Shown: positions 12,670 to 31,157 of the stretch, one piece after another
Position numbering within the stretch: the first letter of the stretch is position 1
Layout: every line of letters starts with the position of its first letter
Source: Rothia koreensis
GTDB taxonomy: Bacteria > Actinomycetota > Actinomycetes > Actinomycetales > Micrococcaceae
Length of the DNA stretch: 64,000 nucleotides
Assembly (NCBI RefSeq): GCF_004136575.1
Contig: NZ_NOIQ01000007.1
Coordinates: forward strand, 1-64,000
Direction of reading: 5' to 3'
Position numbers and translations under genes: made by a program
The notes under the pieces: generated by a model
The model's input: only the letters and a program-made list of their open reading frames with translations
What the model was told of the DNA's origin: nothing
Databases searched by the model: none

Positions 12670-13827
12670 TCAGACCAGGCCGTTGAGCGCGCGCAAAACC
12701 GTACCGAACTTCGAAGCGGTCTCCGCGTGCTCGCTCTCGGGATCGGATCCAGCCACGATCCCGGCCCCCGCGTACAAGGTGATGAACTGCCCCGCGAGGC
12801 TCGCGCAGCGCAGGGCCAGCGACCAGCGACCGTTGCCGGAGGAATCGGTCCAGCCCACCAGGCCGGAATAATAGCTGCGCGACCCGCCCTCGAGGTCCAG
12901 GATCGTGCGCACGGCAGGACCCACCGGGGTTCCGCCCACGGCGGGCGTCGGGTGGATGGCGAGGGCGGCTTCCAAGGCCGAGACCTCGGGTGCCAGGCGA
13001 CCGGTGATCCGCGTGCCGAGGTGCCACATCGAATCCGTCACGAACAGCTGGGGACGGACGGGTACCTGGAGCTCGCTCGCGAGACGGCCGATCGATTCAC
13101 GGATGTGCCGGGTCACGAAGCCGTGCTCGTGCAGGTCCTTGGCCGATGACGAGAGCAGGCGCGTGGCGTCTTCGGCGTCGGGCCCTCCGGGGGAACGACC
13201 GAGGGAACCCGCCAAGGGATGAGTCACGAATCTGGAGTCGTTGACGTCCGCTATGATTTCCGGGCTCGCACCGATCCAGGAGGTGCCGTCCTCCAGCCGG
13301 ACGCGGAAGACGTCGGCGCGGCCGCCCACGGCGGACAAGCGGTCGAACAGACGCTCCTCGGCGCCCCGGCGGTCCGCGTCCTTGAGCCGCATGGTCATCG
13401 TCCGGGACAGGACCACTTTCTCCAGGCTCCCGGAACCGATCCGGTCCAGCGCCTCGGAGACGTTGTGCCGAAACCGCTCGGACTCGGGCGCAGCGGGCAG
13501 CTGTCCGGGAACGACGTCGCCCGACCCGGACGCGACGTGAGGGGTCCACACGGCGTCGTCGGTCATGCGCAATTCGGCGGGCTCGGACAGATCGAAGGGG
13601 ATCATTCCGCACAGCACCTGTGTTCGTCCGGTGGCGCGCTCCCGCTCCTGCAGATCATGGATGACCTCCCGGGCCGCCCCCGGACTCCGGCCGAAGACCG
13701 GCCGCAGGACCTCGCCTCCGGAGGCTTCCAGGGTCCACCTGCCGGAGGAGAAGGCGAAATCCGCGTTCCCATCCGCCGGGGCAGTCGCGGTCGACGTCGG
13801 TCTTTCATCGAGTAGGGGAGAATTCAT
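12670..13827 (-). CDS. entC: Isochorismate synthase
   Basis: A 385-residue chorismate-binding enzyme of the EntC/DhbC type, converting chorismate to isochorismate, the first committed step to 2,3-dihydroxybenzoate. The active-site segments are LEKVVLSRTMTM, WIGASPEII, HPLAGSLGRS, IHPTPAVGGTPVG and YAGAGIVAGSDPESEHAET near the C-terminus. Its ATG overlaps the entA stop (ATGA). It is last in the left-going operon iroD-entB-entA-entC. An anthranilate or salicylate synthase is less likely given the gene neighbours. Confidence 0.93.
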   Translation of the reverse strand: MNSPLLDERPTSTATAPADGNADFAFSSGRWTLEASGGEVLRPVFGRSPGAAREVIHDLQERERATGRTQVLCGMIPFDLSEPAELRMTDDAVWTPHVASGSGDVVPGQLPAAPESERFRHNVSEALDRIGSGSLEKVVLSRTMTMRLKDADRRGAEERLFDRLSAVGGRADVFRVRLEDGTSWIGASPEIIADVNDSRFVTHPLAGSLGRSPGGPDAEDATRLLSSSAKDLHEHGFVTRHIRESIGRLASELQVPVRPQLFVTDSMWHLGTRITGRLAPEVSALEAALAIHPTPAVGGTPVGPAVRTILDLEGGSRSYYSGLVGWTDSSGNGRWSLALRCASLAGQFITLYAGAGIVAGSDPESEHAETASKFGTVLRALNGLV

Positions 13828-14624
13828 CGTTGTGTGGCGCCTCCGTCCACGGTCAGTTCGGTTGCTGTGATGTGTGCCGCCCGTGCCGACACGAGGAACT
13901 CGACGACCTCGGCAATGTCCTGAGGATCCGCGACGCGTCCCAGCGGGATTCCGGGCCGATAGAGGGTGGGATCGCCCGTCACGGTCTGTGCCGTGCGGTC
14001 CGCGCCCTGCCACAGGCCCTCGACCATGGGGGTTTTCGTGGTGCCCGGGTTGACCACCGCACACCGAATTCCCGACCCGCCGAGCTCGAGTCCGAGACTG
14101 CGGGTGTACTGGGCCGCGAATGCCTTGCTCGCCCCGTAGGCGGCGAAGTCGGCGCGCGGACCGGTTCCCGCATTGGAAGCAATGGTGACGATCGAGCGCA
14201 CGGGGCGGGTCCCGGGGTCGTGGCCTCCCTGCCGGACCATCACGCGGGCCGCCGCCGTGCTCGCCCGCAGCACGCCGAGGGCATTGACATCGATCATCCG
14301 GAGCACGTCGGCCTCCGCGGTCTCCAGTGCGGGACCCGTCGCAATCGTCCCGGCCGCGTTGACCAACGACCTGATCCGGTAACGACCCGAGAGGTCTTCG
14401 AAGAACGAGGCCACCGCGTCGGGGTCCGTCACATCCAAGTCCCTGTGCTCGACACCATCGCTCGGCCCGCCCTCGGCTCCGGGACGGGGAGCATGGGTTC
14501 GGTCCGCGGAGACCACCACGGCATCCCCGTGGTCCTCGGAACGACGCCGCAACAGATCGACGACGACTCTGCCGATGCCGCCCGAGCCTCCGGTCACGAC
14601 GATTGCTTGGGGCAAATCCTTCAC
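13824..14624 (-). CDS. entA: 2,3-dihydro-2,3-dihydroxybenzoate dehydrogenase
   Basis: A 266-residue short-chain dehydrogenase. The cofactor loop is VVTGGSGGIGRVV at the N-terminus, the catalytic pair is YGASK (about residue 163) with a preceding Ser in IASNAG, and VNPGTTKTPM follows. EntA oxidises 2,3-dihydro-DHB to 2,3-dihydroxybenzoate with NAD+. The GTG start overlaps the entB stop by 4 bases and has GAGGAG upstream. Assignment within the very large SDR family relies on its place between entB and entC. Confidence 0.88.
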   Translation of the reverse strand: MKDLPQAIVVTGGSGGIGRVVVDLLRRRSEDHGDAVVVSADRTHAPRPGAEGGPSDGVEHRDLDVTDPDAVASFFEDLSGRYRIRSLVNAAGTIATGPALETAEADVLRMIDVNALGVLRASTAAARVMVRQGGHDPGTRPVRSIVTIASNAGTGPRADFAAYGASKAFAAQYTRSLGLELGGSGIRCAVVNPGTTKTPMVEGLWQGADRTAQTVTGDPTLYRPGIPLGRVADPQDIAEVVEFLVSARAAHITATELTVDGGATQR

Positions 14625-15301
14625 GAGGCCATCTCCTCGACGCGCCGCTCGCCGCTGACCCGCGCGGGCGCGAACGGGCCCTGGACGATCTCATCGGTCG
14701 TGCACACCTGTCCGCACCGTCCGGCCACGTAGTCGAGCGCCATCCGGTGGTGCTCCAGGTCGAAATCGGCTTGGGCATCCGCGACGAAGAACACCTGGAT
14801 GCCCTCCATATACGCCTCCAAGGCGGTGGTCAGGCACCCGATGTGCGAATAGACGCCGGCGATCACCAGCTGGTCCCGCCCGTGATTGCGCAACCTGTAA
14901 TCCAGGTCGGTGCGGTAGAACGCGCTGTACCTCCACTTGGTCAGGACGGCGTCCTGCTCACCGGGAGCAAGCTCGTCGATGATGCCCGCGGCGTGCTCAT
15001 TCGTCAGCCCGGGACCCCAGAAATCGGTCAGGAGCTGGCGATCGGCCGGGTCCTGGGACGGTGGTTGCGCCGTGTAGACCACCGGGGCGCCTGCTTCGTG
15101 GAAGAAGTCGCGCAGGACGCGGGAGCGCTGAACGGCGGTCTCGATCTGGGAGCCGGGGCTCCGGTCGAAAGCATCGACGAAATGGTTCTGCATGTCGTGG
15201 ACGAGCAGCAGGGCCCGGTTCGGATCGAGCTGCCACTCGGTCCTGTTGGGCCACGGCGACTGGGCGTCGAGGCTGTACGTATCAATACTGGGCAGGGGCA
15301 A
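14621..15301 (-). CDS. entB: Isochorismatase, stand-alone (no carrier domain)
   Basis: A 226-residue isochorismatase hydrolase. The catalytic triad is visible: Asp in LLVHDMQNHF, Lys in LTKWRYSAF, Cys in SHIGCLTTALEAYM. It hydrolyses isochorismate to 2,3-dihydro-DHB and pyruvate. E. coli EntB and B. subtilis DhbB carry a C-terminal aryl carrier domain, but this protein ends just after the hydrolase fold. The carrier is encoded separately at 26854-27093. The TTG start is supported by GAGGAG five bases upstream. It overlaps the end of iroD by 20 bases. Confidence 0.92.
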   Translation of the reverse strand: MPLPSIDTYSLDAQSPWPNRTEWQLDPNRALLLVHDMQNHFVDAFDRSPGSQIETAVQRSRVLRDFFHEAGAPVVYTAQPPSQDPADRQLLTDFWGPGLTNEHAAGIIDELAPGEQDAVLTKWRYSAFYRTDLDYRLRNHGRDQLVIAGVYSHIGCLTTALEAYMEGIQVFFVADAQADFDLEHHRMALDYVAGRCGQVCTTDEIVQGPFAPARVSGERRVEEMAS

Positions 15302-16643
15302 TGGAACTCCTCATCGATGGGTCGAAGTAACTGTCCGAAGTCCGCTCTTCGTGCGGTTCGGTCCTCAGCGCTCGGGCCAGGCCGTCGACGACGGCGCCGC
15401 GCCACCACGCGAAGTCATGACCGCCGGTGTACATCGTCAGCGCGCTGGACCACCCGGCGTCGAGCATGGTCCGGTGCAGGATTCGGCCCCGCGGGACGGT
15501 GAGACCCTCGCGCTCGCCGATCGCGATCTCCACGGACACGTCCTCCGGCGTCGAGGCCTGGTACCGCTCGGTGATCCAGTCCATGCCCTCCCGGGTCCCG
15601 AGATCGTGCGGCTTCGAGGCACCGTCCGGGGTCCACCAGAGCGAGGGGGAATGGGCGAGGGCGTGTCCGAAAGCGTGCGGCAATTCCAGGGCCGCGACGA
15701 GTGCGGAGAGGCCACCCAGGCTCTGACCTGCGATGATCCTGCCTTCGCGGCCCCTGAGCCCGATGCCCACGGTCCGGGCGCAGTCCTCGGCCCACGCCGT
15801 TGCGTGCTCGGCGACGTCGCGCAGGAAACCCGTGTTCGCCCCGAGGCGCGCGATCCGGTCCGGGGTGTCGTTGTTGGCGATGCCCAGGACGGCCACCGGA
15901 GGAATCCGGCCCGAGTCCGCGGCCGCCTCCAGCGCGTAGGGCAGCCAGAGGTTTCCGAACCAGTTCTCGGCGTCGAAGATCGTGAGCAGGGGAAGGTGCG
16001 CCGCCTGGTGTTCGTTCTGCATCACGGACGGGAGGTAGAGCCAGTGGTCCCTCGCGCGGCCCGAGGCCTCGGCGTGGGGGAGAGCCCTGACGTCGCGCAC
16101 GATGCGCCCGCGCAGCCTGCGAGACCTGTGGTCATCCCACTCCCGTTGGGAAGGAGCCGCGGGCCCGGAGTGGATCGACAGGCCGTGCCGGCCCCGGTCC
16201 ACCAGGGGTTGCCCGGTGTTGAACGGGTCGAGCAACGAATCGTAGGCATTGAACCGAGGCGGACCGGAGCGTCGCTGCTGGTCCGGCGACATGGGCGTGA
16301 AGGCGTAACTGACGCGCAAGGACGGTTCGAGCTCGAGGGTTCGGACCCAGATGTCCGTCCCGGGGACGTGCCGCATCAGTCCGTGGTCGTAGAGGGCCTT
16401 GTCCGTCACGCGGTTCATGGCCAGATGGACGGATTCGGCTCCCTCGGCGTCGTCGCGGACGTGTTTGCCCCGCCACAGGAAGGTGACGCGGTCCGACCCG
16501 GGGTCCACCACAGGTGTCCCGCGACGAGAGACCTCGGCCCACCACCGTTCCAAGTCCTCGCACGTCGCGTTGGTCATGGTTCGGGCGACCGACTCCTCGT
16601 CCAGGAAGCCGGTGGCCTCCAGAGCGTGTTCCGGTGTCTTCAT
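15282..16643 (-). CDS. iroD: Enterochelin/salmochelin esterase (Fes/IroD-like)
   Basis: About 453 residues with no signal peptide, so cytoplasmic. The N-terminal Fes-type domain has RVTFLWRGKH and AMNRVTDKALYDHGLM. The C-terminal alpha/beta hydrolase carries the nucleophile in AGQSLGGLSAL, HSPSLWWTP, and the catalytic His in YTGGHDFAWWRGAVVDGL. Fes/IroD hydrolyse the tri-serine lactone of ferric enterobactin or its glucosylated form, releasing iron inside the cell. It is first in the left-going operon. The start could also be the GTG at 16676, which has AGGA close upstream. Confidence 0.88.
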   Translation of the reverse strand: MKTPEHALEATGFLDEESVARTMTNATCEDLERWWAEVSRRGTPVVDPGSDRVTFLWRGKHVRDDAEGAESVHLAMNRVTDKALYDHGLMRHVPGTDIWVRTLELEPSLRVSYAFTPMSPDQQRRSGPPRFNAYDSLLDPFNTGQPLVDRGRHGLSIHSGPAAPSQREWDDHRSRRLRGRIVRDVRALPHAEASGRARDHWLYLPSVMQNEHQAAHLPLLTIFDAENWFGNLWLPYALEAAADSGRIPPVAVLGIANNDTPDRIARLGANTGFLRDVAEHATAWAEDCARTVGIGLRGREGRIIAGQSLGGLSALVAALELPHAFGHALAHSPSLWWTPDGASKPHDLGTREGMDWITERYQASTPEDVSVEIAIGEREGLTVPRGRILHRTMLDAGWSSALTMYTGGHDFAWWRGAVVDGLARALRTEPHEERTSDSYFDPSMRSSIAPAQY

Positions 16644-16676
16644 CGTCGGAGTTCGTCCTTGCGTCTCGGGATCCAC

Positions 16677-16898
16677 TTGTCCTGCGGCCAGCCGAGTGGC
16701 CCATAAAATAAGCTACAGAAATCTAAGCTATTCCACACGGAATCGGGAGGCGCAAGCTGGATGTGCCGTAAGTCTCCGGTATGACGCCCCGAACCAGGGG
16801 ATGAGGTAGTCAATGGACTTTGTCTTCGCGATTTGGTTAGGCTCTACAAACGCCGGGCAAAGCCAGGCCAAGCTCCCCCAAATTTTGCAAGGAATCCC
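16677..16898. promoter_or_regulatory. Divergent promoter region of the two siderophore operons
   Basis: This 222-base gap separates iroD (left) and iroB (right). It is AT-rich by local standards. It holds a direct repeat TAAGCTA at 16709-16715 and 16724-16730, close to the leftward start, which on the other strand reads like a degenerate iron-box half (ATAGCTTAG). The clearer box at 16832-16850 lies toward iroB. No small gene is evident. Confidence 0.6.
16832..16850 (+). promoter_or_regulatory. DtxR/IdeR-like iron box upstream of iroB
   Basis: The 19-mer TTTGGTTAGGCTCTACAAA matches the DtxR/IdeR consensus TTAGGTTAGGCTAACCTAA at 14 of 19 positions, with an intact central GGTTAGGCT half. It lies 49 bases before the iroB ATG. 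Iron-loaded DtxR/IdeR would repress the operon here; the regulator gene itself is not in the window. Confidence 0.55.
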
Positions 16899-18014
16899 AT
16901 GAGAGTTCTCGTCATCGGTCCGCCCCTCTACGGTCTCCTGTACCCCGTGATCTCGCTGGCACAGGGCCTGAGGGCCTCGGGGCACGACGTCGTCGTCGGG
17001 ACCGCCGGAGACATGTCCCACCGTGTGGCCGAAGCCGGCCTGGTGTCCTTCGATGCGGCACCCGGCCTGGACCCCGACGCCGAGTACCGGCGTCGTGAGG
17101 AGGAGCGCAAACGGGCCAATATCGGGACCGCGCCGGGGGACTTCTCCTTCTTCAGCCACGAGATGACGGACCGTCTCGTGGAATTCACCGGTTCCTGGAC
17201 ACCCGACCTGATCGTCTATCCGCCCCTGGGCGTGGTCGGGCGACTCCTGGGCGCCAGATTCGGTATCCCCACGGTCCTGCAGACCGTGGGCTTCGCCCAC
17301 CAGCAGAAGCACGTGGACACGGTGACCCACTCTCTCCGCGAGAAATTCGCGCAGCACGGGGTCTCGGAACCTCGCGAGGATCTGACCTGGCTCGACGTCG
17401 CACCACCGAGCATGAGCGTCCTCGACCACCCGTCCGAGCTGACCATGCCACTGAGGTATGTGCCCTACAACGGAGGCGCGGTCTTCCAGGACTGGTGGGT
17501 CCGGCCGGATCGTCCCCGGGTTCTCGTCAGCCTCGGCACCCTGAAGCCCATGGTCGATGGGCTCGACCTGATCGACTGGGTTCTCCACCGGGCCGACGAA
17601 CTCGACGCCCAGGTGGTGCTGCAGCTCAAGGACAACGCCCGGGAAGAGCTCGTCGAGGAACTGCCGGACAACGTGACCCTCACCGACTGGATCCCGATGG
17701 GCGGCCTGGTCGAGAACTCGGACGTGTTCATTCATCACGGTGGTGCAGGCAATACCTTCACAGCTCTGGCCGCGGGCGTTCCTCAGATCGTCTTCGGCGA
17801 GGGCGCAGACCGCCCGATGAATGCGCGGATCGTGCAGGAGCGCGGGTGCGGCATCGTTCCCGGCGACGGCGGCCTCACCGCCGAGACGATCCGCTCCGTC
17901 GTCCACGGTCCCGAGTACAGGGAACAGGCGGAAGAAGTCCGGTCCGAGATCCGCGGCATGCCCGGTCCTGCCGAGGTTGCCGACCGTCTCTCCGGCGTGC
18001 TGGTGGGGGTGTAG
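16899..18014 (+). CDS. iroB: IroB-like glycosyltransferase of a catecholate siderophore
   Basis: A 371-residue GT-B, family 1 glycosyltransferase. The N-terminus MRVLVIGPPLYGLLYPVISL, then FDAAPGLD and GDFSFFSHEM, and the nucleotide-sugar block FIHHGGAGNTFTALAAGVPQ closely follow IroB, as does the length. IroB attaches glucose through a C-C bond to the DHB rings of enterobactin, making salmochelins. The start at ATG 16899 is fixed by AAGGA five bases upstream. It is first in the right-going operon and adjacent to an IroC-like exporter, as in enterobacterial iro clusters. The sugar and linkage are inferred from the family. Confidence 0.85.
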   Translation: MRVLVIGPPLYGLLYPVISLAQGLRASGHDVVVGTAGDMSHRVAEAGLVSFDAAPGLDPDAEYRRREEERKRANIGTAPGDFSFFSHEMTDRLVEFTGSWTPDLIVYPPLGVVGRLLGARFGIPTVLQTVGFAHQQKHVDTVTHSLREKFAQHGVSEPREDLTWLDVAPPSMSVLDHPSELTMPLRYVPYNGGAVFQDWWVRPDRPRVLVSLGTLKPMVDGLDLIDWVLHRADELDAQVVLQLKDNAREELVEELPDNVTLTDWIPMGGLVENSDVFIHHGGAGNTFTALAAGVPQIVFGEGADRPMNARIVQERGCGIVPGDGGLTAETIRSVVHGPEYREQAEEVRSEIRGMPGPAEVADRLSGVLVGV

Positions 18015-18125
18015 ACGATCGTATCCACCACCGAATCCCAGACGGATCGTGAACACAACGAGGGATACCTCCGGCGCCTGCTGAGGGTTTGTTGCGAATT
18101 TCCCGGCCTCGTCGGTCTCATCCTC

Positions 18126-21100
18126 GTGGTATCCGTGGCGACCATCGCTGCCGTCGTCGCCGGCCCCCTCCTGACCAGGCAAGGCGTCAACGGCGCTATG
18201 GCCGGCGACGTGTCCCAGCTGTGGTGGCTCGGTGCCGGGCTGGTCGGAATCGCGGCCTTCGACTTCCTGGGCGATTACCTGCGCAGGTTCACGGCAGGAA
18301 AGCTGTCCCTCCGGGTGCAGCACAGGCTCCGCAGCCGCGTCTTCGACTCGATCCAGCGACTCGACGGCCCGGCCCAGGATTCACTGCGCACCGGGCAGGT
18401 GGTCTCCCGGACCAACAACGACCTCCAGCAGGTCCAGTCGATGATGCAGATGTGCCCCGTGCCCGTCTCCGTCATCTCCTACTACGTGTTCGGTATTGCG
18501 GTCATGCTCTGGCTCTCGCCGAGCCTGACCCTGATCGCCGTCGGCGTGGTCGCCTTGTTGGGCTTCACCGCGTGGCGGACGCGCAAGCGCGTCTTCGAGA
18601 CCTCGGCCGCCGCCCAGCACGACGTCGGGCAGATCACCGAGAACGTCAGGTCCGCCCTGTCCGGGATCTCCGTGGTCAAATCCTTCGTTCAGGAGACGCG
18701 ACACATCCGGTGGGTCGAGAAGGCCAGTCGATCGTTGTTCTCGCGCCGCATGCAAACGATGCGTGCGCAGGCGGCCCCGAGCGCGACCATGCTCGCGCTG
18801 CCGCCGGCCGGACAGGCGGCGCTCCTACTCGTCGGCGGGTGGCAGGTCACCACGGGCCGGTTGGACCTGGGGACCTTCGTTGCCTTCTCCACGTACCTGA
18901 GCATGCTCACGGGGCCGACCCGCGTGATGGCTTCGTTCCTGGTGATCGCTCAGAGGACGCGCACCTGCGCCGAGCGCATCTTCGAACTCATGGATGCTCG
19001 ACCCGAGATGAAGGACGGCGCGGCACACCCGCCCCGCAGCACGGGCCTGCAACTGAAGAACATCTCCTTCGGCTACACCTCGGACGAACCCGTGCTCCAC
19101 GACGTCAGCCTGACCGTGCGCCCCGGAGAAACGGTGGCCGTGGTCGGCGCATCCGGGTCCGGCAAGTCGACCCTGGCTCTGCTCGCGCCCCGGTTCTACG
19201 ACGTGACCGGAGGATCCGTGCTGATCGGCGATCCCTCTGCGGACGAGACGACCGAGACGGACGGCCAGCGCGACATCCGCGAGCTCAGGCTCTCGGAACT
19301 GAGACGGGAAGTCGGCGTCGTCTTCGAAGACCCCTTCCTCTTCCGCGCGACCGTGCGGGAGAACATCGCTTACGGAACCCCCGACAGCTCCGAAGAACAG
19401 GTGCGTGCGGCGGCGATCGCTGCGGGCGCCGATGAGTTCATCGTCCAGATGGAGCAGGGCTACGAGACCGAGTTGGCCGAGGGCGGCCGGAACCTCTCCG
19501 GAGGGCAGCGGCAACGCATCGCGCTCGCGAGGGCCCTGCTCACACAGCCGAGAGTCCTGATCGTCGACGACGCCACGAGCTCCGTGGACGCGACCACCGA
19601 GAGCGGCATCAATGCGACCCTGCGTCACTATGCCAGGTCCGGGGAGGGGAGCCACCACGGTGACGCCGTGGATCCGGCGTCGTCCAAGTGCACTCTGCTC
19701 ATCGCGCGCCGACGGAGCACGCTCGACATCGCCGACAGGATCGTCGTGCTCGACGACGGCCGAACGGTCGGCGAAGGAACCCGCGAGCAGCTCATGCGTT
19801 CCTGCCCGCAGTTCGCCGACCTCATGGCCGGCGGTCACGAGGAAATCGACCGGGTGTCCGGAGAATCGGATCTCTGGCCCGACGCCGAGACCACGGAACC
19901 GGCGGAGCCCGCGCTCGGCGCCGACGTGCCCGAGGACGCGCAGGCCGACCTGGGCGGCTGGCTCACCCGGCTTCCCGATGCCGCGGCGTCGATGGCCGCC
20001 GACCCGAAGGTCACCCGCGTGGCCCAGATGCTGAAGCCGGCCAAGGGACTCTTCACGGCGGCCCTGGTGCTCATCGCCCTGAGCTCGTTGGCCACCGTCC
20101 TGGTCCCGCTCATGATCCAACGCGGTATCGACGAAGGCATCGCCCCGGGCGACCACAGGAGACTGCTGTTCTACGCGATCCTGGCGTGGTCCCTCATCGC
20201 CGGAGACTGGATCTTCTACATCGGTCAGTCCTTGTTCAGCGCGAAGGGCTCGGAGTCCGTGCAGTACGGGGTCAGAGTGCGCAGCTTCAGGCACGTGCTC
20301 GGATTCTCCCTGCCGTACTTCGAGAAGGAACAGGGCGGCCAGGTCATGACACGACTCACGGTCGACGTGGACTCCCTCTCGCGATTCCTCCAGTCCGGCC
20401 TGGTCAACGGGTTGATGTCCCTGATCACGATGTTCGGTATCGGCGTCGCGATGCTCGTGTTCAACCCTTTGCTCGCCGTCATCGCACTGTCCCCGATTCC
20501 GCTGGTCCTGGCCGCCACGATCATCTTCCAGCGTCTCTCGACCAAGGCATACGACAGGGCCAGGGAAGACATCGGGAAGGTCAACAGCTCCCTGCAGGAG
20601 AACATTTCGGGCCTGCGCGTGGTCCAGTCCCACGGGAAGCAGTCGATCGCTTCCCAGTTCTTCCAGAAGGTCTCGGACGCATACAGGGTGTCCCGCGAAA
20701 AGGCCCAGCGGTACATCGCTCTGTACTTCCCGTTCGTGGTCTTCTGCTCGCAGGTCTCGAACGCCCTCGTCCTGGTTGCCGGGGCCCGGTTCGTCGCGGA
20801 CGGAACGGTGACCCCAGGTGTCCTGGCCGCGTTCCTGCTGTTCCTCGGGCAGTTCTACGGGCCGATCCAACAGTTGGCGAATATTTTCGATTCGTTCCAG
20901 CAGGCGCGGATCGGGCAGAAGCGCACGGACGAGCTGCTCGCGATGCCGCAGGAGGAGCCCGACGTCGTCGAGAGCGATCGCACGTCCGCGGACGGGTCCC
21001 GTCTTTCCGGCGACATCCGCCTCGACGATGTCTCCTACACGCACGACGGCGCCGTCGAACCCGCCCTCAAGAACATCGATCTCACCCTGGACCAGGGGTC

Positions 21101-21821: not shown

Positions 21822-22988
21822 ATGTCACCGCGCTATGAGAACGAACCACACCTCTCCACGACCGGTACCGAATTCGTCGACTCGTCGGAATCCGGATCAC
21901 GGACCGGTCGGAGGCAGGGGCCGACATCCGGACGACGTCGCTCCGGGTCCGCCGCCGGGCTGATCGCGGCCCTGGGCATCGGCGCCCTCGTGCTGTCGGG
22001 ATGCGGCGACGCGGGAAGCACAACCTCGGAGGCCGACCAGGCCAGCGCCAGTTCGTCGGAGACGACCGGCGACAGCAAACAGCTCAAGCTGCCCTCGGGC
22101 TGGAAGCACGCGGTGGGGACCACCGATTTCCAGGACGTCCAGGCTGACAGCAAACTGCCCACCACGGTGACCGACGGGACCGGGACCGAGGTGACGGTCA
22201 AGGACGCGTCCAAGATCATTTCCGCCGGTGACGGCATTTCCTCGACCCTGGCCGCGCTGGGCCTCAAGGACAAGATCTACGCCGCCCCGAACAACAGCAC
22301 GTCCTCTGCGGGCAAGGATGCTCCCGAGCACTTCGAATTCAGCAAACAGACCGGTACGGAAGGCCTGCTGGCTCTGGACGGGTCGCTGTTCATCGGTGAC
22401 AACACCAAGCGCCACGGAGACGTTGCCAAGCAGTTCCGCGACGCCGGAACGGACGCTGTCGTCGTCGACGACCAACAGAGCCAGGCCAAGAAGCTCCAGG
22501 CCGTCGCCGACTACGTGGGCGCTCACGACGCCGGGACCAAGCTGGTCGACAAGCTGAACTCCGACATGGACGCGGCCAAGAAGAAGGTCGACAAGTCCGA
22601 CCTCAAGGGACACAAGGTCATCCAGGTGACCGCGACCGGTGCCGGCGGCGCAAACTCCGTGGCGGGAACCGGGACGCCCGGGACCGAGATGATCGAGAAC
22701 CTCGGCATGACCTCCGTCGGAGCCGACAGCGGACTGCGTGGCCTGTCCCGTGAGTTCAGCAACGAGGGCATTCTCGCTTCGGATCCTGACGTGATCGTGA
22801 TGGCCGAATCCGATTTTGAGTCCTGGGGCGGTGAGGACGGTCTGTGGGAGGCGTTCCCGACCCTGAAGGAGACGAAGGCCGGGAAGGAGAAGCACATCGT
22901 CGTCATGCCCGACGCCCAGATCCGCTACTCGAGCCCCGAGCTGGGAGCCGGTGCCGAAGCGCTCGCCAAAGCGATCTCGGAGTTCTGA
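21822..22988 (+). CDS. Ferric-siderophore ABC transporter substrate-binding lipoprotein
   Basis: 388 residues. A lipobox LVLSGC gives a predicted lipid-anchored Cys near residue 62, followed by a Ser/Thr-rich linker and a class III periplasmic-binding fold (DASKIISAGDGISSTLAALGL, ILASDPDVIVMAESDFESWGG). The region before the hydrophobic core is unusually long (about 45 residues) and includes GRRRSG, so Tat export is possible. Sequence features also recall heme-binding HmuT. Position in a catecholate locus favours the ferric siderophore as ligand. AAAGGAAAGAAATC precedes the ATG. It is followed by the permease gene after 6 bases. Confidence 0.85.
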   Translation: MSPRYENEPHLSTTGTEFVDSSESGSRTGRRQGPTSGRRRSGSAAGLIAALGIGALVLSGCGDAGSTTSEADQASASSSETTGDSKQLKLPSGWKHAVGTTDFQDVQADSKLPTTVTDGTGTEVTVKDASKIISAGDGISSTLAALGLKDKIYAAPNNSTSSAGKDAPEHFEFSKQTGTEGLLALDGSLFIGDNTKRHGDVAKQFRDAGTDAVVVDDQQSQAKKLQAVADYVGAHDAGTKLVDKLNSDMDAAKKKVDKSDLKGHKVIQVTATGAGGANSVAGTGTPGTEMIENLGMTSVGADSGLRGLSREFSNEGILASDPDVIVMAESDFESWGGEDGLWEAFPTLKETKAGKEKHIVVMPDAQIRYSSPELGAGAEALAKAISEF

Positions 22989-22994
22989 TCCCGC

Positions 22995-24053
22995 ATGCCG
23001 ATGACACGCAGTGAATCCGGCGGGACCGACATCCGCCGACTGCCGCTGGCCGTGACCCTGATCGCCGGACTCGTGATCCTGGCGGGGCTCATGGTCGTGT
23101 CCGTCTCGATCGGACCGGTGCGGGTCGTGCTCACCGATGTTGTGCACATTCTGCTCTCACCGGTCTTCGGCGGGGACGACTCGCTCAGTCAGAGGGACGT
23201 TTCGGTGGTCTGGCAGCTGAGGGTTCCCCGAATCCTGCTGGGCGTCATGGTCGGCGGGGCGCTGGCGATCTCCGGGGCGTGCCTCCAGAGCCTGTTCAAC
23301 AACCCGCTGGCCGACCCCGGCATCGTCGGGGTCACCAGCGGGGCCTCGGTCGGTGCGGTCGGGGCGATCGTGCTGGCCGGCGGCTTCGCCTCCCAGTGGG
23401 TCGTCCCGTTGGGGGCCTTCGTCGCGGGTCTGGCCGTGACCGGGCTGATCTACGTGCTGGCCAGGCCGGGGCGGACCACCGGCACGGCGCGCATGCTGCT
23501 CGTCGGCATCGCGGTGGGCTCGGCGTGTCAGGCCCTGGTGGGCTTCTTCACGTACATCGCCGACGACAGCCAGCTCCAGACCCTGGTGTTCTGGCAGATG
23601 GGTTCGCTGGGGCGAGCGAACTGGGCCCAGCTGGTCGGGGTTCTCCCGATCTTCCTGATAGGCCTCGTCCTGGTCCTGCGGCTCTCGAAGACGCTCGACG
23701 TCCTGACACTGGGGGAGAGGCAGGCCCAGCATCTGGGCCTCAACGTGAAGTTGAGCCGGCTCGCGATCATCGTGACCACGGCACTCCTGACCGCGGCCGC
23801 GGTGGCCTTCGCCGGATCGATCGGATTCGTCGGGCTCGTGGTCCCGCACATCATGAGATTCCTCGTGGGCCCCGGGCACAAGGCCCTGCTCCCGGCATCC
23901 GCGATCGCGGGTGCCGTTCTGGTGGTTGCGGCGGATGCCGCGTCTCGCACGCTCAACCCGCCGACCGAGATCCCGATCGGGCTGTTCACGGCCGCCGTCG
24001 GTGCGCCGTTCTTCCTGTTCCTGATCCTTCGTGAGAAGAGGAGGATCTCATGA
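22995..24053 (+). CDS. FecCD/BtuC-family siderophore permease
   Basis: A 352-residue polytopic protein of the FecCD family. It contains VPRILLGVMVGGALAISGAC, QSLFNNPLADPGIVGVTSGAS, and the cytoplasmic coupling loop FVGLVVPHIMRFLVGPGH. The family usually has ten membrane segments and works as a dimer. Only one permease gene is present, so a homodimer is likely, unlike the FepD/FepG pair. Its stop overlaps the ATPase start (ATGA). ATG 23001 is a possible alternative start. Confidence 0.92.
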   Translation: MPMTRSESGGTDIRRLPLAVTLIAGLVILAGLMVVSVSIGPVRVVLTDVVHILLSPVFGGDDSLSQRDVSVVWQLRVPRILLGVMVGGALAISGACLQSLFNNPLADPGIVGVTSGASVGAVGAIVLAGGFASQWVVPLGAFVAGLAVTGLIYVLARPGRTTGTARMLLVGIAVGSACQALVGFFTYIADDSQLQTLVFWQMGSLGRANWAQLVGVLPIFLIGLVLVLRLSKTLDVLTLGERQAQHLGLNVKLSRLAIIVTTALLTAAAVAFAGSIGFVGLVVPHIMRFLVGPGHKALLPASAIAGAVLVVAADAASRTLNPPTEIPIGLFTAAVGAPFFLFLILREKRRIS

Positions 24054-24889
24054 TTCGAGGCAAACGAAACCGTTCGGACGCGTCGACGTCCGCGGGCTCG
24101 TCGCCAACGGCGCGAGACCCCCACACGCCTGTCGTCGAGGTGCGGTCCGTCAGCTATGCGATCGGGCCCAAGACCCTGATCGACGACGTCGCTTTCGATC
24201 TGCTTCCCGGCACGGTCACCGCACTGGTCGGGCCCAACGGGGCAGGAAAATCGACCATGCTCGGGCTGCTCGCGGGCGACTTCGTTCCCCAGCACGGCGA
24301 GGTGCTGATCGGCGGGCGGGCCCCCGGGCAGTGGCGCCCTCTCGAACTTGCCCGGGAACGGTCCGTGATGCTCCAGCAGCAGACCACCCATTTCGGATTC
24401 AGCGTGGAGGAAGCCGTGGCCATGGGGCGTCTTCCGCACGACGTCGACGAGGAACGAGACCGGGAGATCGTCGAATCGGCCCTCGAGGAGTCCGACGTCG
24501 CGCGACTTCGACGACGAGACGTCACCACCCTGTCCGGCGGCGAATCGGCGAGAGTCGCCTACGCACGGACGGTCACCCAGACCACACCGATCGTGCTCCT
24601 GGACGAGCCGACCGCCGCACTCGACCTCCAGAACCAGGAAGCTCTGCTGCGATCGACCCAGCGACTGGCAGGGAACGGTGCCGCCGTGGTCGTGGTCCTT
24701 CACGACCTCAATCAGGCGGCACGCTATGCGACCCGCGTGCTGATGTTTTCCCGCAGCCGACTGGTGGCCGACGGGGCGCCCCCTGAGGTCCTCACCCCGG
24801 AACGGATCGAGGACGTCTACGGGCAGAAAGTCCATCTCTTGGAGCATCCCCAGACCGGGGCCCCGGTTCTGGTGCCCGTGCACGACTGA
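24050..24889 (+). CDS. ABC transporter ATPase for ferric-siderophore uptake (FecE/HmuV-like)
   Basis: 279 residues with a full nucleotide-binding domain: Walker A GPNGAGKST (about residue 63), Q-loop MLQQQTTHFGFSVEE, signature LSGGESAR, Walker B VLLDEPTAALD and switch VVVLHDLNQAARYA. About 30 extra N-terminal residues precede the domain. It energises the adjacent permease. The 4-base overlap with the permease gene indicates coupled translation. Confidence 0.93.
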   Translation: MIRGKRNRSDASTSAGSSPTARDPHTPVVEVRSVSYAIGPKTLIDDVAFDLLPGTVTALVGPNGAGKSTMLGLLAGDFVPQHGEVLIGGRAPGQWRPLELARERSVMLQQQTTHFGFSVEEAVAMGRLPHDVDEERDREIVESALEESDVARLRRRDVTTLSGGESARVAYARTVTQTTPIVLLDEPTAALDLQNQEALLRSTQRLAGNGAAVVVVLHDLNQAARYATRVLMFSRSRLVADGAPPEVLTPERIEDVYGQKVHLLEHPQTGAPVLVPVHD

Positions 24890-24949: not shown

Positions 24950-26692
24950 ATGACCCAAACCGCGCTGACCGGCCGAACGGGCCTGGCCGAGTACCCAGGG
25001 ATTCCCGAAGAATTCGCCGCGAAGTATCGCGCGGCCGGCTACTGGATCGACGAGACCTTCCAGGATTTCGTCCTGGACCGGTGCGACCGATTCGCGGACC
25101 GGACCGCGCTCGTCGCCTCTTCGTCACGGGACCCCGAAACGGGCAGCCTGGCGACCCAGACCTGGACGTACGCTGACTTGGAGGACGAAGCCAGGCGTTC
25201 GGCCCGAACACTCCTGGACGTCGGCGTCGCGCCGGGAGACCGGGTGATCCTGCAACTGCCCAACACCGCCGAGTACATGGCCTACCTCTGCGGGGCATTC
25301 CTCGTGGGTGCCTTGCCCGTCTTCGCCCTGCCCAAGCACAGGGCGAGCGAACTGGGCCACTTCGCCCGAAAGACCGACGCGGCGGCCCACATCGTCTGTC
25401 AGGGGGCCGAAGGATTCGATTACCTCGGTCTCTACCGGGAGTACGCCGACGGCATGCGGGCCGAAGGCCTCCAACCCCCGGTTCTGATCGAGGCGAGCGG
25501 GCAGGTGACCGAGAGCGAGGACGGCGTCGTCGCCATCCTGGACCGTCCGGAACCCCTGCTCGACCTTCCCAGGCCCGTGCGCAACCGAGGGGCCGAGCGG
25601 CTGAGCGAGAACGTGGCGTTCCTCCAGCTGTCCGGAGGGACCACCGGAATGTCCAAACTGATTCCGCGAACCCACGCCGACTACCTCTACTCGGTCAGGG
25701 CCTCGGACCCGATCTGCGGTGTGGATCGCGAGACCAGAATGCTCGTGGTCCTGCCCGCGGCACACAATTTCACGATGAGCTCTCCGGGGATCCTCGGGGT
25801 GCTGCACGAGGGAGGCAGCCTCGTCTTCGCGGCGGACCCGAGCCCGCAGACCGCGTTCTCCCTCATCGAGCAGGAACGGGTCACGATGGCATCGCTGGTG
25901 CCGCCCCTGCTGCAGGCGTGGATACTCTCGGCCCAGAGGAGGTCACCGGACCTCTCGAGCCTCAGGACCGTTCAGGTCGGCGGGGCCAAGCTCGCCCCGA
26001 GCGTGGCCGAAAAAGTCGGCCCGGTCCTCGGCGCTCGGCTCCAACAGGTCTTCGGCATGGCCGAGGGACTGGTCAACTACACGAGGGACACGGATCCGGA
26101 GGAACTCGTCGTCCGGACACAGGGAGTCCCCATCAGCCCCGACGACGAGCTGCTGGTCGTCGACGACGACGACCGTCCCGTGGCCGAGGGCGAAACCGGT
26201 CACCTCCTGACCCGTGGCCCCTACACGATCCGCGGCTACTACCTGGAGGACAAGGCCAACCGCTTCGGCTTCACCGAGGACGGGTACTACCGAACCGGCG
26301 ACATCGTCCGGCTGCACCCCACGGGGCACGTCGAGGTCACCGGGCGGTCGAAGGACCAGATCAATCGGGCCGGAGAAAAGATCGCGGTGGACGAGATCGA
26401 GGACGTGGCCCTCAGCGCCGACGGGGTGGCCGACGCCGTCGTCGTCGGGATACCCGATGACGACCTCGGAGAACGCGTCGGCCTGGTGGTCCTGCCCCGG
26501 GACGACGCCGACTTCGGCGTGGACCCGAGAACCTGGTTCCGCGAATGGTTCCGGGAACGGGGGATCGCGGAATTCAAGATCCCGGAACGCGTCGAGATCC
26601 GTCGGGACCTGCCTCTGACCAACGTCGGCAAGATCTCGCGCCGCCACCTCAGGACCGCCCTGGCCGAGGACCTCGCCGCGTCTCGACCCTGA
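24950..26692 (+). CDS. entE: 2,3-dihydroxybenzoate-AMP ligase
   Basis: A 580-residue acyl-adenylating enzyme, somewhat longer than EntE/DhbE (about 540). Core motifs are LSGGTTGMSKLIPRTHADY (about residue 226), the aryl-acid pocket AAHNFTMSSPG, FGMAEGLVNYT, YRTGDIV, GRSKDQINRAGEKI and the C-terminal Lys in NVGKISRR. The Ser in HNFTMSSPG corresponds to the pocket Ser of DHB-specific enzymes; salicylate-specific ones usually have Cys there. It activates DHB and loads it on the ArCP encoded next. A GAAGGAAACC ribosome site is present. Confidence 0.93.
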   Translation: MTQTALTGRTGLAEYPGIPEEFAAKYRAAGYWIDETFQDFVLDRCDRFADRTALVASSSRDPETGSLATQTWTYADLEDEARRSARTLLDVGVAPGDRVILQLPNTAEYMAYLCGAFLVGALPVFALPKHRASELGHFARKTDAAAHIVCQGAEGFDYLGLYREYADGMRAEGLQPPVLIEASGQVTESEDGVVAILDRPEPLLDLPRPVRNRGAERLSENVAFLQLSGGTTGMSKLIPRTHADYLYSVRASDPICGVDRETRMLVVLPAAHNFTMSSPGILGVLHEGGSLVFAADPSPQTAFSLIEQERVTMASLVPPLLQAWILSAQRRSPDLSSLRTVQVGGAKLAPSVAEKVGPVLGARLQQVFGMAEGLVNYTRDTDPEELVVRTQGVPISPDDELLVVDDDDRPVAEGETGHLLTRGPYTIRGYYLEDKANRFGFTEDGYYRTGDIVRLHPTGHVEVTGRSKDQINRAGEKIAVDEIEDVALSADGVADAVVVGIPDDDLGERVGLVVLPRDDADFGVDPRTWFREWFRERGIAEFKIPERVEIRRDLPLTNVGKISRRHLRTALAEDLAASRP

Positions 26693-26853: not shown

Positions 26854-27093
26854 ATGATCGACGATTCGACACTCAAGTCAGTCCTGGCGCCGCACTTGCG
26901 CGAGGAAGGGGCCTTGGACAAGGCCTTCCATGACCCCACGGCCAACCTGTTCGACCTGGGGATGGATTCCATCTCGGCATTCGCCCTCCTGGACGACCTC
27001 CAGGATCACGGGGTGGGCCTGGAATTCACGGAGTTGATCGCTGACCCCAGCGTCGGATTCCTCCGCGAAGCATCGGAAAGGGCCCAGTCATAG
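26854..27093 (+). CDS. Stand-alone aryl carrier protein
   Basis: A 79-residue carrier protein with the phosphopantetheine attachment Ser in FDLGMDSISAFALLDDL (around residue 38). AAGGAGAAGAAAC precedes the ATG. The stop overlaps the GTG of the synthetase gene. It supplies the carrier function missing from the short EntB and accepts the DHB acyl group from EntE for condensation on the NRPS. A 161-base gap separates it from entE; that gap holds GC-rich repeats but no gene I can support. Confidence 0.9.
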   Translation: MIDDSTLKSVLAPHLREEGALDKAFHDPTANLFDLGMDSISAFALLDDLQDHGVGLEFTELIADPSVGFLREASERAQS

Positions 27094-30000
27094 TGGACCG
27101 GAATGCCCCGCCCTGGTACCCGCTCACGGATGCGGCGCGCGGAATAGGGTTCGCGACTCGACTCGACCCGGACAATCCTTGCTACAACACTGCCGAATGC
27201 GTCGAATTCACCGAGCCGGTGGACGCGAAGGCGCTACGATCCGCGCTCGGAACCGTGTACGCGGAGAATGAGGGATTCCGGGTCGAACTGGACCAACGCG
27301 GCAGCGAGCTCGGCTGGCGCTCGCTCGACATCGACGAATTCCTCGGTCGCGTCACCGTCGGGCGCAGCATCAGGCTCGAGGCCACGCCCGCCGAGGCGCG
27401 ACGGACGGTGCTCGATTGGTGCGCGGAAGCGGTGCGCACGGCCCTCGACGTCGAACGGGGGCGCACCGTGGATTCCGCGATCATCGAATGCGGCGGCCGC
27501 CAATGGTTCTACCACTGTTTCCACCACCTGGTCGCCGACGGATTCGCCGCATTCGACGCCCTGCGCCGGGTGGGACAGGTCTACGGGCGGATTCTCGAGG
27601 GCGAGGCCCCCGAGCCGGCTCACAGGCCAGGGCTCGCGGAGCTGCGGGCCCAGGACGCCTCTGACGCCGAGCGCCGAGCCGCCGATCTCGAGGCCTGGTC
27701 GGAACGGCTCGATCAGGAGGACACACCGACGGATTACTCTCTCGCGCAACGCGAGGCCGCACCCTCGGCCACGGCGCACAGGTTTGCCCTGCCGGTCGAC
27801 GTGAGTCTCCAGGAGGCGATCGTCGAGGTCGCCCGCGGTGAGGGGGCACAATGGCCGACGGGCGTCGTGGCCGCCGTCGGTTCGTACCTCTCCCGAGCCC
27901 TCGGCGTGCCCCAGGCCGGCTTCGGCGTTCCCCAGATGAACCGGGCCCTGTCCGGTGCACCTCGAGTCGCCGCCCGCACGGGATGCACCGCGGTGAATGT
28001 GTTGCCCGTCCATGTCTCCGCCCTCACGCGCCCCCAGGACCAAGTGCGGCAGGTCAGGGACCAGATGGTGTTCAACCACGAGCACGCTCTGGCCCGCCAG
28101 GAAGACCTGGAAAGGCAGGCCGCGCGTCGAGGCGGTCGGGCCTTCGGGGCCCAGATCAATGTGGTGCCCTTCGACGCCGTCCTGCGATTCGGCCCGTGCC
28201 GGGCTCAGGTCCACAACGTGTCCGCGGGCCCGGTTCCTGACATGACGGTGTGCCTGAGGGGCATGCCCGGTCGGGGGCACGACCTCAGCCTCGAGCTGAC
28301 CGCGAACCCCGAGCTGTATTCCCCGGAGGAAACCGAACGCCACGCGCATCGAATCCTGCGATGGATGCGTTCGTGGACCGAGGCAGCAAGGACGAGAACG
28401 CCCACCGCGCAGCTCGACCAGGCGCTTCCCGAGGAAATCGAACGTATTCGCAGCCTGTCAGCCACGGAGCACGAGGTCGAGGCTCGAACGCTTCTCGAGC
28501 GATTCGAGGAGCAGGCCGAGCGCACCCCGGAGGCACGTGCCCTGCGCGAAGGACCCGCCTACGGTTCCACGGGTTGCTTCGGGGGTGGAGAGAGAACCTA
28601 CGCCGAGCTGGTCCGCGCGTCCCGTGAGGTCGCCGAGGGGCTCTCCGCCGCCGGTGTGGCCCCGGGCGACGTCGTCGGGCTCCGCGTCGAGCGCGGCGTC
28701 GAACAGTTCGAGCTCCTCTACGGCCTGTTGTACGCCGGGGCCGTGTACCTGCCGATCGACCCGACCCTTCCCGTCGGCCGCGTGACGGCCATGCTCGAGG
28801 ACGCCGAGTGCTCGACACTGATCAACGGGACCGGCCTGGCGTTGCCGGACTTCTCCGAGGCCGCGACTGGGACCGACGCCGCTTCCCATACCGCACCCGT
28901 CCGTCTCCTGGAGGCTCGGGAGGTCTACCGCCTGGGACGCGAGACCGGGACACGAACCCCCTCCGAGGACTACCCGGGCCGTCGAACCCGTCCGGACGAT
29001 CTGGCCTATGTCCAATTCACCTCCGGCTCGACCGGGCGTCCCAAAGGCGTGCCGATCACGCACCGGGCCCTGGACAACAGGTTGCGCTGGCAACAGCACC
29101 TGATTCCGATCGATGGGTCCGACAGGATCGCTCACAAGACGGCGATTTCCTTCGATGTCCACGTGTGGGAGCTGTACTGGCCGCTCCAGGAGGGCGCATG
29201 CGTCGTGATCGCGGCCCCCGAGGGGCACAAGGATCCCGAGTACTTGGCCCGCCTCCTCCGGGACGAGGCGGTCACGGGCCTGCACTTCGTGCCGACGATG
29301 CTCTCGGCGTTCATCTCGACCCCCTCCGTCCGTGCCCTCCTGGGTGACGAACGAGTCGCGCTCCGCCACATCGTGTGCAGTGGTGAGGCGCTGACCAGGG
29401 AACAGGTCCGAGGTACCGTCGACCTCGTGGGCGTTCACCCCTTGAATCTGTACGGCCCGACCGAAGCCGCGATCGACGTCACGGCCTGGGACACGGAAAC
29501 GGACCCTGACGCCGCCGTCGTGCCCATCGGACGCCCGGCCTGGAACACCGGATGCCACGTTGTCGATCCCACGGGCCACCTGTGTCCGCCAGGTATACCC
29601 GGGGAGCTGTGCCTGTCGGGTGTCCAGGTCATGTCCGGGTACCTCAATCGACCGGACGCCGACGCCGCTGCCCTGGACACGATTCCCCTGGGCAGGGGCC
29701 GCGGCCGGCCCGGATCGCCCGACGTGTCCTCGCCCGAGCCTGAGACGCTCCGGGTGTACCGCACCGGCGACCTGGCCGTGTGGCGAGAGGACGGCGTCCT
29801 GGAGTACAGGGGGCGCCGGGACCACCAGATCAAGATCCGGGGCCAGCGACTCGAACTGGGGGAAGTGGAAGCGGTCCTTGCCGACGTCGAGGGCGTCCAC
29901 GCCGCCGTCGTTCTGGTCAAGAGCATCGGCGGACAACAGACGCTGGCAGCCTTTGTCGAGGGCGACGCCGAGCGCGGCGACGACCTCCTGGCCTCGGCCA

Positions 30001-31157
30001 AACGTCATGCCGCAGCCGTGCTGCCCGAGTACATGGTCCCCGCGCTGTGGTCGCGTGTGGACGGCATGCCCGTGACCACCAACGGCAAGGCGGACCGGAG
30101 GGCCCTGGATGCGATGGAACTGGCCCTGCCGGACCAGGGAGGCGTGCCCCGGTCGCTGAAGGAACAGACGGTCTGCATGATCTTCGCCGACGTCCTCGAC
30201 GTGCCCTCGGTCGGCCCGGACACGGATTTCTTCTCGGCCGGGGGAGCATCACTGAGCGCCCTCGAGCTCGGGATCCGCGTCGAAGAACAGTTCGGAACGC
30301 CGTGTTCCCTCGCAAAGATCTTCGCCCATCCCACGCCCGGGTCCCTGGCCGAGTCTCTCGAGGACGATGACGCGGGCGAGCTCGAACCCGTCCTGCGGCT
30401 GCGCCACGGTCAGGATCCGGACGCGACGCCTGTCGTGTTCCTCCCTCCCGCTGGGGGGCTCGGGTGGTGTTACGCCTCGTTCCTGAAGCACCTTGATCCG
30501 TCGTCGTCCGTCTGGACCCTCCAGGCCAGGCAGTTCTCGGACCCCTCGTCGCGATGGCCCGAGACCCTGGAAGAGCTCGCGGAGGACTACGCCGCATCCC
30601 TGTCCGCGATCGCGCCGCACGGTTGCATCCTGGCCGGATGGTCCGTGGGAGGGATCGCGGCCGTCGACGTCGCCGCGCGGGCCGCACGGCACGGGGTCGA
30701 CGTCGAGAAGGTCGTGCTGTTGGATGCGTACCCGCCGACCTACTGGCGAGCCCGTCCGGAACCGACCGAGTCCGATCTCTGGATCGCGCTGATGCGCATG
30801 GGTGGGATCGAGCCGCGGGAGGTGCCCGGCGACTTGGCCGGAACCGTCGCCGCGCTCAGGGAGCATGGCTCTCCGTTGGCGAACCTGGACGACGCATCGT
30901 TGCGCACGTGCATCACGTCGGTGTGGAAGGCGATGGGCTACACGAGGGGCCGCGATCCCCAGGCATTCGCCGGCCGGCTGATCCTGTGCTCGGCGCGGGA
31001 CAGCCTGGAGGCCGGTGCCGATCCCGACGCGTGGTTGCCGTGGTGCGACGAACTGGAGACCCACGTCGTCGAGGGCGACCATGCATCGGTGCTCCGAGGC
31101 GCCAACGCCGAGAGGGTCGCGCAATGGCTGGTCCCGGACGTGGCGGTACGGCCATGA
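27093..31157 (+). CDS. entF: EntF-like nonribosomal peptide synthetase, C-A-T-TE
   Basis: 1354 residues. The condensation domain has HHLVADG near residue 143. The adenylation domain has FTSGSTGRPKG near 640, FDVHVWELYW near 686 and NLYGPTEAAID near 783. The specificity code read by eye is DVWHVSLIDK, 8 of 10 identical to the EntF serine code. The thiolation domain has GGASLSALEL, with its Ser near 1052. The thioesterase has GWSVGG near 1181 and a His in EGDHAS near 1327. One serine module with a terminal TE implies iterative DHB-Ser assembly and cyclisation to a trilactone, as in enterobactin. The GTG start overlaps the ArCP stop. No MbtH-like partner gene is seen. Confidence 0.93.
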   Translation: MDRNAPPWYPLTDAARGIGFATRLDPDNPCYNTAECVEFTEPVDAKALRSALGTVYAENEGFRVELDQRGSELGWRSLDIDEFLGRVTVGRSIRLEATPAEARRTVLDWCAEAVRTALDVERGRTVDSAIIECGGRQWFYHCFHHLVADGFAAFDALRRVGQVYGRILEGEAPEPAHRPGLAELRAQDASDAERRAADLEAWSERLDQEDTPTDYSLAQREAAPSATAHRFALPVDVSLQEAIVEVARGEGAQWPTGVVAAVGSYLSRALGVPQAGFGVPQMNRALSGAPRVAARTGCTAVNVLPVHVSALTRPQDQVRQVRDQMVFNHEHALARQEDLERQAARRGGRAFGAQINVVPFDAVLRFGPCRAQVHNVSAGPVPDMTVCLRGMPGRGHDLSLELTANPELYSPEETERHAHRILRWMRSWTEAARTRTPTAQLDQALPEEIERIRSLSATEHEVEARTLLERFEEQAERTPEARALREGPAYGSTGCFGGGERTYAELVRASREVAEGLSAAGVAPGDVVGLRVERGVEQFELLYGLLYAGAVYLPIDPTLPVGRVTAMLEDAECSTLINGTGLALPDFSEAATGTDAASHTAPVRLLEAREVYRLGRETGTRTPSEDYPGRRTRPDDLAYVQFTSGSTGRPKGVPITHRALDNRLRWQQHLIPIDGSDRIAHKTAISFDVHVWELYWPLQEGACVVIAAPEGHKDPEYLARLLRDEAVTGLHFVPTMLSAFISTPSVRALLGDERVALRHIVCSGEALTREQVRGTVDLVGVHPLNLYGPTEAAIDVTAWDTETDPDAAVVPIGRPAWNTGCHVVDPTGHLCPPGIPGELCLSGVQVMSGYLNRPDADAAALDTIPLGRGRGRPGSPDVSSPEPETLRVYRTGDLAVWREDGVLEYRGRRDHQIKIRGQRLELGEVEAVLADVEGVHAAVVLVKSIGGQQTLAAFVEGDAERGDDLLASAKRHAAAVLPEYMVPALWSRVDGMPVTTNGKADRRALDAMELALPDQGGVPRSLKEQTVCMIFADVLDVPSVGPDTDFFSAGGASLSALELGIRVEEQFGTPCSLAKIFAHPTPGSLAESLEDDDAGELEPVLRLRHGQDPDATPVVFLPPAGGLGWCYASFLKHLDPSSSVWTLQARQFSDPSSRWPETLEELAEDYAASLSAIAPHGCILAGWSVGGIAAVDVAARAARHGVDVEKVVLLDAYPPTYWRARPEPTESDLWIALMRMGGIEPREVPGDLAGTVAALREHGSPLANLDDASLRTCITSVWKAMGYTRGRDPQAFAGRLILCSARDSLEAGADPDAWLPWCDELETHVVEGDHASVLRGANAERVAQWLVPDVAVRP

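Follow-up and report, generated by a model that had tools for sequence, protein, structure and literature searches.

A salmochelin-type siderophore locus in Rothia koreensis and the likely actinobacterial origin of iroB, iroC and iroD

Salmochelin is a classic virulence trait linked to lipocalin-2, and the occurrence of salmochelin-type genes in a Gram-positive bacterium raises the question of what they would make there and where they came from. We examined this question for the locus at positions 12670-31157 of a 64-kb stretch of Rothia koreensis DNA (64,000 nucleotides, hereafter the window). The explanation that best accounts for the evidence as a whole, and which we consider very probable, is that this is a complete salmochelin-type locus for a C-glucosylated enterobactin, that iroB-iroC-iroD are most likely an actinobacterial invention and that the iroA genes of enterobacteria descend from it by transfer.

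Profile searches of the open reading frames with Pfam and NCBIfam identify 12 genes arranged in two divergent sets (Table 1). From the centre outward, the minus-strand set encodes an Enterochelin_N esterase, an isochorismatase, a 2,3-dihydro-2,3-dihydroxybenzoate dehydrogenase and an isochorismate synthase, and the plus-strand set encodes, in this order, a glycosyltransferase, a fused ABC exporter, a lipoprotein, a FecCD permease, an ATPase, a 2,3-dihydroxybenzoate (DHB)-AMP ligase, a carrier protein and a synthetase with condensation, adenylation, thiolation and thioesterase domains (C-A-T-TE). Every gene of the salmochelin-type list drawn up in the initial annotation (entC, entA, entB, entE, aryl carrier protein, entF, IroB, IroC, IroD/Fes and the importer) was thus found by family searches. 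Identities to enterobacterial proteins given below and in Table 1 refer to the iro proteins of Klebsiella aerogenes and the ent proteins of E. coli K-12.

The set for enterobactin biosynthesis (EntC, EntB, EntA, EntE, aryl carrier and EntF) is entirely present in the locus. EntF is a one-module C-A-T-TE enzyme with a condensation motif and a thioesterase domain bearing a GWSVG motif, and the serine code of its adenylation domain reads DVWHVSLID, as compared with DVWHFSLVD in E. coli. Because this serine code is accompanied by a complete DHB pathway, a DHB-Ser trilactone product is supported, in line with the earlier proposal of assembly genes for a predicted DHB-Ser macrolactone. As for phosphopantetheinyl transferases, the host genome holds an AcpS gene and a weak second match. 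From the gene identities, orthology and layout, we infer the glucosylated product, its chemistry, the transported species, the regulation and what these hosts would gain from glucosylation. In the proposed scheme, EntC, EntB and EntA would produce DHB, EntE would load it onto the separate carrier protein, and EntF would couple it to serine and cyclise three units into enterobactin, whose catechol rings would then be C-glucosylated by the IroB orthologue. The IroC orthologue would export the glucosylated product, the lipoprotein, permease and ATPase would re-import the ferric complex, and the IroD-type esterase would open the trilactone in the cytosol, freeing the iron.

The identity of the glycosyltransferase is central to this scheme, and the initial annotation had proposed a phylogeny as a check on it. 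In the resulting tree of 82 proteins, the window enzyme falls in a clade (support 100/100) with all 20 enterobacterial IroB rows, three further Rothia sequences, two from Brevibacterium and that of Streptomyces SID5785; the sister group comprises 10 further Streptomyces, and 45 other glycosyltransferases (44 actinobacterial and one from Paenibacillus) form the outgroup. This tree, as the others described below, leaves out rows with less than 75% coverage (here the Shimwellia fragment L046) and the duplicate loci L011 and L012. The grouping agrees with the approximately 59% identity over nearly the whole length, with 982 matching plasmid records (all 25 among the matches listed are annotated IroB) and with the columns of the alignment. 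Indeed, counted without L045 and L046, 114 of the 371 positions are invariant among the seven closest actinobacterial IroB and kept in at least 95% of 19 enterobacterial ones, and 13 positions are typical of the entire IroB clade. A macrolide-type enzyme with a merely superficial likeness to IroB was ruled out by the tree, and the window glycosyltransferase is, judging from its place there, an IroB orthologue.

One could still suppose that the locus makes plain enterobactin and that the glycosyltransferase and the exporter serve another acceptor, for instance a macrolide or another phenol, and lie next to the assembly genes by chance. Indeed, among PDB entries the enzyme is most similar in sequence to glycosyltransferases of antibiotic pathways such as SnogD and CalG3, macrolide-type names are returned by Pfam and by NCBIfam (the latter below its cut-offs), and glycosyltransferase/IroC-like exporter pairs of the Kutzneria type occur with no esterase match. 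However, the 59% identity to IroB, a clade that excludes the 45 other glycosyltransferases and the fact that IroC and an IroD-type esterase accompany the enzyme in Rothia, Brevibacterium and Streptomyces SID5785 make a chance neighbourhood very unlikely.

The exporter and the esterase behave in the same way as the glycosyltransferase. The IroC tree (39 rows, computed with the simpler LG model) has the same main grouping as that of IroB and places the window exporter, which aligns with IroC over 1198 residues, in the IroC clade; on this basis it is an IroC orthologue, as had been annotated. The esterase was annotated as an IroD/Fes-type trilactone esterase, and it belongs to the IroD side: it is 37% identical to IroD versus 27% to E. 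coli Fes, and a 43-row tree unites it with IroD and with the Brevibacterium and SID5785 enzymes (100/99). E. coli Fes, 10 Streptomyces esterases and those found in seven other Rothia all stand outside this group. The tree has no outgroup and is midpoint-rooted, and with this root the 10 Streptomyces sequences lie on the same side as E. coli Fes. A clade uniting IroD with E. coli Fes, the single sequence representing the Fes family, is rejected by the approximately unbiased (AU) test (p-AU 0.0001), and the tree grouping together with this test ruled out a plain Fes.

The start of iroC is unusual. No ATG, GTG or TTG stands at the homology-supported start in the window (18015-18125, plus strand) nor in the Rothia loci L010 and L013, and L014 has later ones. 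In all four Rothia, an ATC follows the iroB stop codon (TAG) directly and in frame with iroB, which suggests that iroC may be translated either from an ATC start or by read-through of the iroB stop.

Within the genus (Rothia in the GTDB sense), iroB and iroC are both found in the same 4 of 35 genomes, that of the window included, and an entF-like match is found in 19 of the 35. Two close relatives (L010 and L011) retain all 12 genes with 65-89% identity. A third relative, R. santali (L012, L014, L127, L128), retains the tailoring, esterase and import genes, with open frames for iroB, iroC, the esterase and the importer; three separate pieces match entF, one of them containing a stop, and entA, entB, entC and entE were not found within the 57 kb read around the locus. 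R. santali is perhaps a user of siderophores made by others, or the picture perhaps reflects an assembly error. Genome G031 (L119) has the same layout, with an esterase of 52% and a lipoprotein and permease of 73-83% identity, but iroB and iroC are absent: 244 bases lie between the matching portions of its esterase gene and its lipoprotein gene. No entC turned up in the stretch that was read. Since iroB, iroC, the esterase and the importer are also present in Brevibacterium, loss of iroBC in G031 is the simpler reading. The broken synthetase and missing genes of R. santali and the lack of iroBC in G031 could be taken as signs that the locus is decaying and that no siderophore is made, but all 12 window frames are open (iroC except for the missing usual start codon), the motifs are kept in those checked and two close relatives have kept the whole set, and we therefore hold decay of the window locus to be highly improbable. 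That the locus is peculiar to one genome was ruled out by the other Rothia, Brevibacterium and Streptomyces loci.

Outside the genus, the initial annotation had described IroB, IroC and IroD as known from enterobacteria; the set is also co-located in other Gram-positives, with iroB, iroC and fes together in two Brevibacterium and 11 Streptomyces loci. Both Brevibacterium loci have iroB, iroC, the esterase and the importer along with matches to entA, entC, entE, entB and entF, and gave no match to a separate carrier protein. In Streptomyces cacaoi, iroB, iroC, two permease matches, entF, entB, entE, entC and entA lie within 23 kb on a single contig; in S. sulphureus, entA, entC, entE, entB and entF accompany fes-iroB-iroC within 28 kb; and in S. 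pinistramenti, entC and entE adjoin fes-iroB-iroC. Furthermore, all 17 iro-bearing genomes tested, of which 14 are actinobacterial and 3 enterobacterial, gave an EntE-like match (E 1e-40), the best match holding a stop in R. santali and S. rimosus and being partial in SID5785. The genomes were scanned with two short peptide patterns, so that more distant IroB genes escape, and 80 of 118 relatives were kept.

No match to the periplasmic esterase IroE was obtained in the host genome in a search run without a positive control, and a Gram-negative-type periplasm is not expected in this host. No IroN-like TonB receptor was found in the host genome either, the family being matched in 3 of 14 control genomes, and the lipoprotein importer stands in for IroN. 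Control would likely be exerted at the divergent promoter, which bears a candidate iron box, by a DtxR/IdeR-type repressor in an iron-dependent manner. Scored against a DtxR/IdeR consensus, this box is the best match in the 64-kb window, and 5 of 1000 plain shuffles of the 257-base intergenic region attain a score of at least 14. With the same consensus, L010, L013 and L119 score 14/19, Brevibacterium 15-16/19 and the iroD-iroB gap of SID5785 18/19. On the esterase side of the divergent promoter (16642-16760), a second element (AATAAGCTAC...ATCTAA) appears by eye to be common to the Rothia loci.

Where, then, did the cassette originate? Most likely, the salmochelin cassette has its source in Actinomycetota, from where it passed to Enterobacterales, a proposal drawn from the trees, from an excess of G+C and from the divergent layout. 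In each tree, the Enterobacterales form one clade (20 rows for IroB, 14 for IroC and 17 for IroD) whose companions in the set are all actinobacteria. The outgroups used for IroB and IroC consist of actinobacterial sequences except for one Paenibacillus row. The AU test rejects a topology in which the 17 actinobacterial iro rows make up a single clade separate from Enterobacterales (p-AU 2e-44 for IroC and 0.019 for IroB). Moreover, the G+C content exceeds that of the surrounding DNA for iroBC in 14 of 14 enterobacterial loci with both genes and for iroD in 13 of 13. Finally, a divergent orientation of iroD relative to iroB-iroC is common to the seven loci of Rothia, Brevibacterium and SID5785, and among the 17 enterobacterial loci that have an esterase it is seen in three (Erwinia, Pantoea and Pluralibacter); the 10 other Streptomyces loci have another layout. 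A phage search returned two Salmonella-derived records and one weak match. We think it reasonably probable that the cassette now present in Salmonella, hypervirulent Klebsiella and extra-intestinal E. coli came into being in Actinomycetota along with an enterobactin-type assembly line of its own, that it entered Enterobacterales once and as a unit, and that glucosylation first had a role other than evasion of mammalian lipocalin-2, immune evasion being an exaptation. If so, the first role may have been, for instance, to deny the siderophore to competitors or to tune its affinity for membranes.

The opposite direction, from Enterobacterales to a few actinobacteria, would account for the patchy presence of the genes, found in so few genomes of the genus and in 1 of 396 sampled across the phylum at E 1e-75 (the window's own; a parallel sample around an Erwinia gave 2 of 398, the Erwinia itself included). 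It would also account for the fact that IroB (59%) and IroC (50%) are better conserved between the phyla than the accompanying ent proteins (30-45%), which is not the case for IroD (37%), in families that differ in rate. We nevertheless judge it unlikely, since the enterobacterial rows form one clade for all three genes, the IroB and IroC outgroups are actinobacterial but for one Paenibacillus row, iroBCD are rich in G+C relative to their enterobacterial surroundings and 10 Streptomyces branch outside the group that holds all the enterobacterial genes.

Several observations weigh against the reading of an actinobacterial cassette for a glucosylated enterobactin. Whether Enterobacterales stand inside or beside the Rothia-Brevibacterium-SID5785 group depends on gene and model: the p-AU values are 0.003 for IroC (simpler model), 0.40 for IroB, 0.08 for Fes and 0.10 for the joined tree (quick search, mixture model). 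Rothia joins Brevibacterium in the IroB (97/97) and Fes (98/96) trees but Enterobacterales in that of IroC (93/92), where a Rothia and Brevibacterium clade is rejected (p-AU 0.019), and the tree program warned of long branches, above all that of SID5785. On the functional side, no MbtH gene was found in the host genome, the E. coli and B. subtilis controls being matched, and the iron box scores 14/19 in the window and only 11/19 in the R. santali promoter. Furthermore, in the genome of S. varsoviensis the contig that holds iroB, iroC and fes is not the one with the synthetase genes, and the organism is reported (PMC10188961) to make enterobactin and linear, methylated or oxidised relatives, none of them glucosylated.

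The Rothia locus shares IroB, IroC and IroD orthologues and the adjacency of iroB and iroC with the iroBCDEN (iroA) genes of Salmonella, E. coli and Klebsiella. It differs from iroA in lacking an IroE match and a TonB receptor, in including enterobactin assembly genes and a lipoprotein-type importer, and in having iroD divergent from iroB. On the other hand, homologous entE, carrier protein and entF genes (EntF 39-54%) link it to the enterobactin cluster of Rothia mucilaginosa (PMC7190385, BGC0002685) and of other Rothia, as seen in seven iroB-less loci of the genus, whereas these seven have another esterase (26-29%) and another importer and are without iroB and iroC. A term search found "glycosyl", "glucosyl" and "salmochelin" absent from PMC7190385, and "glycosyl" is likewise absent from the accessible part of an article describing Rothia enterobactin-like clusters (PMC13347742). 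The ens cluster of S. varsoviensis (PMC10188961) also has an isochorismatase split from the carrier protein and yields DHB-Ser products, and it is set apart by its products without glucose and by the separate contig of its iroB, iroC and fes. A subsystem label "salmochelin-mediated iron acquisition" is given for a Streptomyces in PMC13260306. Within the sections of the open-access literature that could be consulted, PMC12096840 included, no report was found that describes actinobacteria with a salmochelin-type locus including its assembly line, that traces iroBCD to an actinobacterial source or that presents glucosylated catecholate siderophores from actinobacteria.

Complete loci in Rothia, with like sets in Brevibacterium and Streptomyces, thus point to a likely source and order of events for salmochelin. 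They predict glucosylated catecholate siderophores in actinobacteria and designate their carriers as organisms in which the first function of salmochelin can be tested. Early papers on IroB may already have remarked on its Gram-positive likeness.

Table 1. Genes and candidate regulatory site of the locus (positions in the window)
Feature	Position	Strand	Remarks
entC-like isochorismate synthase	12670..13827	-	385 aa; Chorismate_bind and isochorismate synthase models; 38% to E. coli EntC
entA-like 2,3-dihydro-2,3-DHB dehydrogenase	13824..14624	-	266 aa; top NCBIfam model TIGR04316, below its cut-off; 39% over 203 aa to E. coli EntA
entB-like isochorismatase without carrier domain	14621..15301	-	226 aa; PF00857; 45% to isochorismatase part of E. 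coli EntB
iroD/fes-type trilactone esterase	15282..16676	-	Enterochelin_N and Esterase; GQSLG and GGHD motifs; alternative ATG start at about 16643 possible
Candidate DtxR/IdeR iron box	16832..16850	+	14/19 to the consensus
iroB-type C-glucosyltransferase	16899..18014	+	371 aa; 59% over 98-99% to IroB; tree; columns common with enterobacterial IroB
iroC-type fused ABC exporter	18018..21755	+	50% over 1198 aa to IroC; tree; homology-supported start is ATC
Siderophore-binding lipoprotein	21822..22988	+	Peripla_BP_2; lipobox LSGC at N-terminus
FecCD-type permease	22995..24053	+	PF01032; 35-36% to FepG and FepD
Importer ATPase	24050..24889	+	ABC_tran; 37% to FepC
entE-like DHB-AMP ligase	24950..26692	+	580 aa; TIGR02275 581 bits, below its cut-off; 39% to E. 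coli EntE
Stand-alone aryl carrier protein	26854..27093	+	79 aa; PP-binding in this frame; LGMDS motif
entF-like C-A-T-TE synthetase	27093..31157	+	Serine code DVWHVSLID; 30% to E. coli EntF

While the gene list of the initial annotation stands, some of its limits had to be revised: entC covers 12670-13827 and not the long 702-aa frame, entB is without a carrier domain, the carrier being encoded separately at 26854-27093, and iroC starts upstream of 18126, probably at 18018. The placement on a Gram-positive chromosome finds support in a relative, whose locus sits on a contig of 2.96 Mb, whereas the window itself belongs to an 86-kb contig of a draft genome of 2.9 Mb in 44 contigs.

Some minor observations can be added. 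In Kutzneria, Crossiella and Solihabitans (L047, L051, L054, L058, L060, L061, L065, L069), IroB-like (34-39%) and IroC-like (43-45%) genes lie about 10 kb apart or less with no esterase match, and may serve some other glycosylated, exported product. An Rfam scan of 12000-32500 at E 0.1 gave no match. Elsewhere in the window, an Actino-pnp RNA is found at 4891-4949 on the plus strand (66 bits), and a beta-lactamase-family gene (PF13354) lies on the minus strand at 31257-32075, immediately beyond entF.

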